Assembly (NCBI RefSeq): GCF_037977235.1
Contig: NZ_CP150276.1
Coordinates: 1,984,001 to 2,048,000 of the forward strand
Source of the DNA: Paenibacillus sp. FSL K6-0276
GTDB taxonomy: Bacteria; Bacillota; Bacilli; Paenibacillales; Paenibacillaceae
DNA: 64,000 bases
Reading direction: 5' to 3'
Shown: in pieces, positions 9,423-11,392 of the stretch
Position numbering within the stretch: the stretch's first letter is position 1
How the letters are laid out: every line of letters starts with the position of its first letter
Notes under the pieces: model-generated
What the model saw: only the letters and a program-made list of their open reading frames with translations
Told to the model about the DNA's origin: nothing
Databases searched by the model: none
Made by a program: the position numbers and the translations under genes

Positions 9423-9451
9423 TTGACAGCTTCGATGTTCTATAATAATAT
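9423..9451 (+). promoter_or_regulatory. Probable sigma-A promoter for namA
   Basis: TTGACA at 9423-9428 is separated by 17 bases from TAATAT at 9446-9451. A start near 9458 would lie inside a palindrome and give namA a leader of nearly 300 bases. Confidence 0.55.
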
Positions 9452-9453
9452 AC

Positions 9454-9495
9454 ATGCATGAGCATGCATTTATTATATAGCTTTAGTTTAAACTA
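9454..9495. promoter_or_regulatory. Two palindromes, candidate operators upstream of namA
   Basis: ATGCAT-GAGC-ATGCAT (9454-9469) and the perfect palindrome TAGTTTAAACTA (9484-9495) sit at and just after the predicted transcription start. Palindromes of this size are typical of dimeric regulators such as MarR or TetR. The MarR gene downstream of namA is the obvious candidate; this is inference. Confidence 0.45.
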
Positions 9496-9546
9496 TATAA
9501 GATGAACTTGGAAAATTGAGATTAGGGAGAGAAGTGACGAAGAGGA

Positions 9547-9655
9547 GTTTTGGAACTGTAGGCGCGATAGTTGACCGCCTTTGTCTCTAGATTTCAACTA
9601 CTAGTATTGGTTAAATAGAAGAAATCTGGAGACAACAGCGGCCGAAAGTCCAAAC
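9547..9655. repeat. Long imperfect inverted repeat in the namA leader
   Basis: The left arm (about 9547-9599) and right arm (about 9619-9655) pair imperfectly. The best block is TGTCTCTAGATTTC against GAAATCTGGAGACA (13 of 14), extended by CCGC/GCGG and, further out, TTTTGGAACT against AGTCCAAAC. The whole folds into a hairpin of roughly 110 bases. It could be a small non-autonomous element, a structured RNA or both. A second structure of similar scale lies at 49604-49730. Confidence 0.6.
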
Positions 9656-9751
9656 ATTCCTTGTAGTTACGATCGATCCTTATAAAAAACTCGAGATCAT
9701 TTGTTTCAATGTTCATAATAAATTTAGTTTTTTATAATGAGGAGAGATATC

Positions 9752-10789
9752 ATGAAAGACTTGTTTACCCCGTATGAAATGAAGAATTTGAAATTGAAGA
9801 ACCGCGTGGTTATGCCTCCGATGTGTCAGTATTCCGTGACGAACAAAGACGGGATTGCTACCGATTGGCATTATAATCATTACGTAAGTCGCGCCATTGG
9901 AGGAACTGGATTAATTATTATTGAAATGACCGATGTGGAGCCTGATGGCCGAATTACTGATTTTGACCTTGGTATTTGGTCCGATGAGCAGATTCCAGCA
10001 CTGGCTAGAATTGTTGATGCTTGTCATTCCTATGGGGCAAAAGTAGGTATTCAAATTGCTCATGCTGGGCGTAAGGCAGAAGATGCAGCAGTTCCTGTAT
10101 CCTCTTCTGCCGTTCCATTTGACGCTGACTCCAAAACACCACGTGCCCTAACGACTGAAGAAGTGAAGGGTATGGTTGAGAAATTCCGGTTGGGCGTGAA
10201 GCGTGCGATTCAAGCGGGGTTTGATGTTATCGAACTTCATGGTGCGCACGGTTACCTCATTCATCAGTTCCATTCACCACTAACGAATCAAAGAACAGAT
10301 GAATATGGCAAAGATTTGACTCTCTTCGGTACTGAAATCATTCATGCAGCTAAAAGCGAAATGCCTGAAGGAATGCCACTAATCATGCGTATCTCGGCTC
10401 AAGAATATGTCGAGGGCGGATACGGAATCAAAGAAAGTATGGAAATTAGTAAGGCCTATAAAGAAGCAGGAGTAGATATTTTTCATATTAGTACAGGTGG
10501 CGAAGGTCCAATCGGAGCTGCTGGTATGCCCGGAACGCATGCGGCGTATCAAGTTCCTTTGGCAAGAGAGATCAAATATGGCTTGAATGTTCCGGTGATT
10601 GCTGTAGGTAGATTGGATGAACCGACTCTTGCCAATGCAGTCATTGGTAATGAGGATGCTGATCTTGTCGCAGTTGGCCGGGGAATGCTGAGAAATCCGT
10701 ATTGGACTTTGGAGGCTGGGGTTGAGCTTCAGAAAGATGCCGGTATTCCTCGGCAGTATGCCTTTGGATTTCCTAGAATTAAAGGATAA
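9752..10789 (+). CDS. namA: NADPH dehydrogenase, old yellow enzyme family (YqjM-like)
   Basis: This 345-residue FMN-dependent ene-reductase begins 'MKDLFTPYEMKNLKLKNRVVMPPMCQYS' and contains the active-site block 'VIELHGAHGYLIHQFHSPLTNQRTDEYG' and the C-terminal FMN-binding 'DLVAVGRGMLRNPYW'. NamA/YqjM reduces the C=C bond of alpha,beta-unsaturated aldehydes and ketones and also some nitro compounds, using NADPH. An in-frame ATG at 9737 exists, but the GAGGAGAG site lies between it and the ATG at 9752, so 9752 is chosen. The gene has a terminator at 10820 and a MarR gene 165 bases downstream that may control it. Confidence 0.95.
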   Translation: MKDLFTPYEMKNLKLKNRVVMPPMCQYSVTNKDGIATDWHYNHYVSRAIGGTGLIIIEMTDVEPDGRITDFDLGIWSDEQIPALARIVDACHSYGAKVGIQIAHAGRKAEDAAVPVSSSAVPFDADSKTPRALTTEEVKGMVEKFRLGVKRAIQAGFDVIELHGAHGYLIHQFHSPLTNQRTDEYGKDLTLFGTEIIHAAKSEMPEGMPLIMRISAQEYVEGGYGIKESMEISKAYKEAGVDIFHISTGGEGPIGAAGMPGTHAAYQVPLAREIKYGLNVPVIAVGRLDEPTLANAVIGNEDADLVAVGRGMLRNPYWTLEAGVELQKDAGIPRQYAFGFPRIKG

Positions 10790-10954: not shown

Positions 10955-11392
10955 ATGGACAAAATTCTTAACAATGACCTTATCACGAATTGGTTGACGT
11001 TAACACATATACAAATGAATGTGACGAATGAATTAGAAGTTAATTTGCAAGCGAATCATGGCTTATCTTTAAAAGAGTTCTACTTGCTGTTATTTTTATC
11101 GGAAGCTCCGGAAAAGAAATTGAAATTGCAGAAACTCGAATCCATGGTCGGTTTAAGCCAAAGTGCCGTTTCACGACTGGTTAGTCGGTTTGAAGCCAAG
11201 GGCTGCGGAGCTTTAGAAAGAAAAGCATGCGATGATGATCGCAGAAGTATTTATACCTCTATGACCCCCATTGGTGAAGGCAAGCTCATTAGTGCTCAAG
11301 AAACCTTTAAAGAAACTCTAATTGCGGCTTTTCCGGAAAAAGATGTGGAACAGCTTCTGGAACAAATGCTTCGAATGAAGCGACAATCTTGA
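10955..11392 (+). CDS. MarR-family transcriptional regulator
   Basis: This 145-residue protein has the MarR winged helix, including 'LSLKEFYLLLFLSEAP', the recognition helix 'LSQSAVSRLVSRFEAKG' and the wing 'DDRRSIYTSMTPIGEGKL'. MarR proteins are dimeric repressors that leave DNA when they bind phenolic or electrophilic ligands. Downstream position relative to namA suggests that it represses this ene-reductase, possibly through the palindromes at 9454-9495. It starts at ATG after AGGAGATG and is followed by a terminator shared with the convergent GNAT gene. Confidence 0.88.
   Translation: MDKILNNDLITNWLTLTHIQMNVTNELEVNLQANHGLSLKEFYLLLFLSEAPEKKLKLQKLESMVGLSQSAVSRLVSRFEAKGCGALERKACDDDRRSIYTSMTPIGEGKLISAQETFKETLIAAFPEKDVEQLLEQMLRMKRQS

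Follow-up and report, generated by a model that had tools for sequence, protein, structure and literature searches.

The hairpin in the namA leader of Paenibacillus sp. FSL K6-0276 belongs as a single copy, at a probability that we put near 0.8, to a mobile repeat that is MITE-like and non-autonomous and whose palindrome measures about 200–230 bp. The repeat consists of a 142-nt core, the fold of which is conserved on one strand, and of outer arms that pair within a copy and differ between copies. Copies are dispersed and occur order-wide, orthologous sites are found empty and filled, the core shows compensatory change and a strand asymmetry, and some copies are carried inside IS1182-family elements. 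We propose that the repeat has been moved in trans at the DNA level, perhaps by an enzyme acting on single-stranded hairpins during replication, and that IS1182-family elements, by carrying it along, have added to its copies. Insertion at namA, between the operator and the ribosome-binding site, would have made the leader ~210 nt longer and, if transcribed, the element would give the namA mRNA a long stem; most probably this has no effect on the gene, or alters the stability or processing of the leader only modestly.

Extent and parts of the hairpin

The window is the whole stretch of 64,000 nucleotides that was analysed. In it the first-pass annotation had marked an inverted repeat at 9547–9655, which is real and has the right coordinates but makes up only about half of the element. 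The fold energy of this segment is −37.2 kcal/mol on the plus strand (z −4.55) and −38.2 on the minus strand (z −5.86), with none of 200 shuffles folding as well. Pairing extends further, to −72.4 kcal/mol (z −5.31) for 9485–9720; the whole palindrome spans ~9493–9705, with the model core at 9531–9673. The covariance model of the repeat, R1 (142 positions, built from 44 copies with the namA-leader copy among them), matches 9531–9673 with 138.1 bits and an E-value of 8.1e-39, and this is the sole copy in the window, bar its own reverse-strand shadow. The parts of the locus are as follows.

9423–9451, plus strand: promoter-like site outside the element (10 of 12 matches; context conserved in relatives)
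9454–9469, no strand assigned: operator-like palindrome ATGCATGAGCATGCAT, outside the element, upstream of it and of namA
9493–9530, plus strand: left outer arm, whose first bases are the end motif CTATATAAGATGAACTT (motif scan; paired to the right arm when 9485–9720 is folded)
9531–9673, plus strand: structured core (full-length R1 match)
9547–9655, plus strand: hairpin of the first-pass annotation (fold z −4.55 and −5.86)
9674–9705, plus strand: right outer arm, with an inferred outer limit of about 9700–9717
9752–10789, plus strand: namA-type gene of the old yellow enzyme family (PF00724, E 2.6e-73)

The boundary of the right arm is uncertain because the arm has decayed and merges into sequence that relatives have without the element. 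The end-motif pattern CTATATWAGTTGAACTT, with up to two mismatches, has 16 matches in the genome, compared with nine for a control pattern; all except the match at 5414539 lie at ends of repeat copies (15 of 16, 11 of these in IS copies). The arms are inverted repeats within each copy, and ends of the CTATATAAG type are present in a subset of copies only.

Copies within the genome and across genomes

A BLAST search of the genome with the repeat gave 42 rows, three of which have chance-like E-values of 3.8–7 (one of the three, at 535233, is real by its profile score) and two pairs of which are halves of one copy each. The count of places in the genome is about 38: 22 of the main type, three of a subfamily with a different outer stem (L033, L034 and L036) and 13 in an IS1182-family element or its remnant. 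Twelve of these 13 are near-identical copies in an IS1182-family element (L004–L012, L014, L015 and L018) and one, L016, lies in an apparent remnant of such an element; thus about 25 places are independent. Since the near-identical copies ride in the IS, they are no evidence of 12 separate jumps of the hairpin, and a recent transposition burst was ruled out as their source. Linkage of these copies to rRNA operons was also ruled out: they have no rRNA match and are the IS copies.

Five copies (L027, L030, L036, L037 and L040) contain an extra hairpin module of ~39 nt at one fixed position inside the repeat, and its presence differs between orthologous copies of near relatives. All five matches to the module pattern in the genome fall inside repeat copies, which rules out a free-standing module there, and we take it as a subdomain that was gained and lost. 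A similar module at a different hairpin position was seen in L220, from a genome of another genus (G259), at about 1560–1620.

By BLAST the repeat was found in 32 of 37 genomes of the genus, own genome included, and in none of 23 genomes from other families of the order. The R1 search extended this to all of the 100 genomes examined from the genus and to 147 of 198 genomes (27 of 43 genera) of the order; in a draw of 250 genomes from the class, 21 had matches, every one of them in the own family. Copy numbers reach at least 106 (G143) and at least 103 (G249). Exact 46-base matches in named records make eight stretches, all from Paenibacillus, and among plasmids there were three weak matches, again all Paenibacillus; a search of a phage collection produced no match. 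The first-pass annotation had suggested that parts of the sequence resemble a dispersed Paenibacillus intergenic repeat and had proposed a nucleotide search of Paenibacillus genomes; the ~38 places in the genome, the genus-wide copies and the named records agree with that suggestion. It had also named the outcome, neither other copies nor compensatory changes, that would leave a chance inverted repeat. Both copies and compensation were found, and with the comparison of the fold with shuffles they rule out a chance origin.

Empty, filled and remnant sites

In the six nearest relatives (NamA 94–96% identical) the namA site is empty in five; in the sixth, G001, a remnant of about 20–35 bases of the left arm is present. 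Four further sites vary in the same manner: L019 is empty or nearly empty in G082, G093 and G001, L030 in G082 and G007, and both L017 and L037 in G001, with precise loss not always distinguishable from an empty site. These empty and filled orthologous sites, at namA and the four others, bear out the suggestion of a miniature mobile element. Remnants consisting of the left arm only were observed at three sites (L019 in G094, L037 in G109 and namA in G001), and deletion within the palindrome therefore seems common. In the namA gene tree G001 is basal and the pairing of the own genome with G007 is weakly supported; with this topology the insertion may predate the own lineage, with later losses, so that gain and loss are inseparable there.

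A direct repeat of ~11 bases flanking L030 is a possible target duplication, and comparisons of empty and filled sites at namA and the four other loci gave no clear duplication of constant length elsewhere; a single such site counts against the MITE-like reading. Insertion into pre-existing palindromes, as a source of the copy-specific arms, was ruled out at L019 and L037, whose empty sites have no arms. At the L017 site of G082, G093, G094 and G007 (L190–L193) two nested arm sets are present; it appears that one copy has landed within or next to another copy's arms.

The site between parE and parC is filled in the own genome and in G109, G093, G094, G082, G007 and G034, and is occupied by a truncated copy in G001 (the G015 row is poorly aligned). 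Persistence of this insertion across distant species could reflect a host function. In G094 both arms at this site are unlike those of the others, yet they still pair.

Pairing, covariation and strand asymmetry

For the analysis of covariation, which the first-pass annotation had recommended, we used an alignment of 44 copies, A1, which leaves out the IS duplicates, the copies with the 39-nt insert and poorly scoring copies. Standard pairs fill 98.1% of its pair cells, and 22 of 40 core pairs have changed on both sides. None of 500 shuffles matched this pairing on any of five measures, and sliding the pairing partners along the alignment destroyed it. The alignment in which the pairs were counted had also served for the structure prediction; folding of the reverse complement was the strand control. 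Compensation in the core is strong, and the structured element that had been offered as one possibility is borne out by a conserved, covarying fold.

On the plus strand the core has 62 G-U against 11 A-C pairs, the single pair with a G-U majority being omitted. Since a fold predicted from one strand favours its own G-U pairs, the reverse complement was folded as well; for the 29 core pairs predicted from both strands the counts are 24 and 7 (p 0.003). This excess points to the plus strand, which is also the namA strand, as the one whose fold is kept, a strand-specific constraint beyond what a plain MITE requires, and one that weighs against the MITE-like reading. The outer 50 bases behave differently, with 67 G-U vs 56 A-C, i.e. 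evenly and with no strand asymmetry. The outer arms pair better within copies (mean −19.1 kcal/mol) than between copies (−12.4 kcal/mol), while in a control 85–130 bases out own and cross pairings did not differ (−14.7 vs −14.9); a control at 40–85 bases was left out as some pairs gave no duplex. A strand-specific core and strand-neutral arms in one element make the repeat a test of how palindromes stay paired.

The covariation might also have arisen without selection, if template switching during replication rewrites one arm from the other and pairing is maintained by mutation alone. The even counts in the outer arms fit such a process, the arms at parE-parC were replaced as a pair in G094, and at orthologous sites the two-sided changes that keep a pair (30, vs 22 that break one) exceed the 18 one-sided changes from Watson-Crick to G-U. 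One-sided changes to A-C number eight and to other mismatches 14; at these sites alone the asymmetry of 18 vs 8 is not significant (p 0.08). Arm copying would, however, have erased the conserved bulges of the core and its one predominantly G-U pair (34 of 44 copies), and it does not account for the G-U excess over A-C in the core. We regard it as a possible though doubtful explanation, and favour the mobile repeat with a core maintained on one strand.

IS1182-family carriers

The transposase of the IS that carries the near-identical copies matches NF033551 (E 3e-99). From a search of 15 genomes 30 IS1182 transposase loci were examined, some of them halves of one element, and nine of these contain the hairpin. 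The nine belong to two IS groups with different ends, and in all nine the hairpin is upstream of and antisense to the transposase. The second group, in G092 and G119, carries another subfamily of the repeat at the same place and in the same orientation. Relatives of each hairpin-bearing group are without the repeat.

Such regularities, and the 12 near-identical copies in the own genome, might suggest that the repeat belongs to IS1182-family elements and is spread by their transposase only. In the same direction points G164, where two copies lie directly between IS ends of the GAGGCCACTGAAAAA type. Against this, the independent copies examined by a pattern scan have no IS ends, related IS1182 elements lack the repeat, and five of 15 genomes, G164 among them, have no IS1182 match at an E-value of 1e-20, yet of these five G143 has at least 106 copies, G164 at least 64, G176 at least 42 and G145 at least 38. 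Exclusive spread by IS1182 is, we think, improbable; most simply, the repeat got into non-coding sequence that these elements could spare and is carried along by them. No autonomous partner with CTATATAAG-type ends was seen. A bolder reading, which we consider very unlikely, makes the core the RNA component of a mobile system: a strand-specific structured RNA, lying antisense and upstream to the transposase in the two IS1182 groups, would help mobilisation (as a guide, a cofactor or a template that is copied), and the hundreds of dispersed hairpins would be solo units whose fold persists since movement requires it.

Two other observations concern these elements. Another IS1182-type element occurs nine times in the own genome, each time with the same score (e.g. 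C1:1869044-1870353), and its transposase is split into two frames. The IS1182 elements L249, L248 and L257 (from G119 and G092) end on the transposase side with a hairpin, GGGGCTGTCCC...GGGACAGCCC, that resembles a terminator and has T's after it.

Genomic context and orientation

The flanks of 100 distinct sites were sense-tandem in 42 cases, antisense-tandem in 19, divergent in 21, convergent in 16 and incomplete in two. These counts, like the other orientation counts, rely on a simple open-reading-frame picker, with frames running through the core set aside (in 77 of 107 cores one or more of the six frames is of this kind). No flanking gene family recurs at more than five of the 100 sites. 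Flanked operons include parE-parC, pheS-pheT, nrd, pur and arg, names that were read by eye from the translations.

Among the 61 tandem sites the excess of sense over antisense (42 vs 19, p 0.004) could reflect a function in mRNA. The repeat would then be a functional RNA, an mRNA processing or stability element whose sense orientation is favoured by selection at many loci, and the strand-specific pairing of the core, the two-sided changes at orthologous sites and the filling of parE-parC-like sites across several species are consistent with this. On the other side, the antisense tandem sites (19 of 61) and the convergent sites (16 of 100) are not what such a role predicts, occupancy varies among near relatives and inner deletions are tolerated. 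The sense bias may, moreover, merely follow replication: of 129 listed cases, the best matches of 18 genomes, 94 are oriented with replication and 35 against, on the assumption of an origin at the contig end. Without G007 and G071, which look reversed, the counts are 93 and 28. In the subset having both gene and replication data the counts are 13 vs 2 at divergent and 5 vs 6 at convergent sites, so that the directions of replication and of genes are not cleanly separable. We hold a selected functional RNA to be rather unlikely as the main explanation, and continue with the mobile repeat.

The element in the namA leader

The element lies between the promoter-like site at 9423–9451 and the namA start at 9752, as the first-pass annotation had placed it; four promoter-like sites were found in the region, vs 4.4 expected from shuffles. 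The NCBIfam NamA model NF010047 matches the gene with an E-value of 4e-114, yet under its cut-off (381 of 431 bits). Upstream of namA the motif ATGCATGAGCAT[AG]CAT is present in 29 of 29 loci of the genus, the partial locus L100 being left out. The distance from this operator-like palindrome to the namA start is 298 bases here and 41–120 bases in the 28 other loci. Perhaps a MarR-type regulator, such as the product of the MarR-family gene at 10955–11392 downstream of namA, binds the palindrome at 9454–9469.

That the hairpin might be an attenuator of namA had been proposed from the sequence, and its location in the presumed leader would suit an attenuator or another leader regulator. The analysis speaks against this role. 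A full-length copy is present in one of the 29 namA loci, and the gap between operator and start is too short to hold one in the 28 others; no terminator-like site was found on the plus strand within 9493–9751; and it is the operator-like palindrome that is conserved. Regulation of namA by the element is accordingly extremely unlikely. With the operator-like palindrome in all 29 loci and no terminator-like tail in the element, the element is in our view an insertion that the leader tolerates; the namA hairpin is likely to be a passenger and not a switch.

Comparison with known repeats

Like REP elements of REP/RAYT systems, the repeat is palindromic, intergenic and of high copy number, and in its core GTAG stands next to a stem. 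REPs, however, measure 20–40 bp (PMC3733652), compared with at least 142 nt here. The Y1 transposase (PF01797) has no match in the own genome (controls were positive in 5 of 14), which rules out a REP/RAYT system in that genome; no enzyme that moves the repeat was found, and this too weighs against the MITE-like reading.

The repeat has several features of a MITE: it is short, dispersed, without coding capacity (judged from the size and structure of the core) and polymorphic in insertion between relatives. With MITEs such as NEMIS, ERIC and RUP (named in PMC3733652) it shares a length of 70–300 bp, a lack of coding capacity, inverted repeats and positions next to genes. It differs from them in having no clear target duplication, ends that vary by copy and a core more conserved than the ends.

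At the gathering score Rfam has no match in the window or in 13 IS-type loci, and at E-values up to 1 no match in 13 loci overlaps the repeat. No published description of the family was found in the open-licence literature, outside which most subscription papers lie. A structured repeat present in 100 of 100 genomes of a genus and in many genera of its order is thus without an Rfam entry. Should it be mobile, it would equip the leaders and intercistronic stretches of housekeeping operons with RNA structure, and would offer a natural experiment on the tolerance of insertions between operator and gene.

The closest likeness in kind is to bcr1 (and to bcr2 and bcr3) of the Bacillus cereus group, which three papers describe as MITE-like, some 150 bp long and intergenic, with a conserved predicted structure and often located in UTRs or between operon genes (PMC3446304, PMC6542083, PMC2267715). 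In two B. cereus strains mRNA contained 84 of 165 and 62 of 155 bcr repeats (PMC3446304). The present repeat is likewise intergenic and MITE-like with a conserved predicted structure. The hosts of bcr, by contrast, are another group of Bacilli, and R1 has no match outside the own family in the 250-genome class draw. The bcr repeats are tied to a TTTAT motif (PMC6542083), whereas by eye no TTTAT pair was seen at the junctions of the element at namA and at the four empty/filled sites; TTTAT is in the left flank at namA and L037 and not at both ends. The two are set apart by description, range and TTTAT rather than by sequence alignment. On this comparison, the namA-leader repeat appears to represent a new, seemingly undescribed family of a known kind, the mobile structured intergenic repeats, in kind like bcr1.
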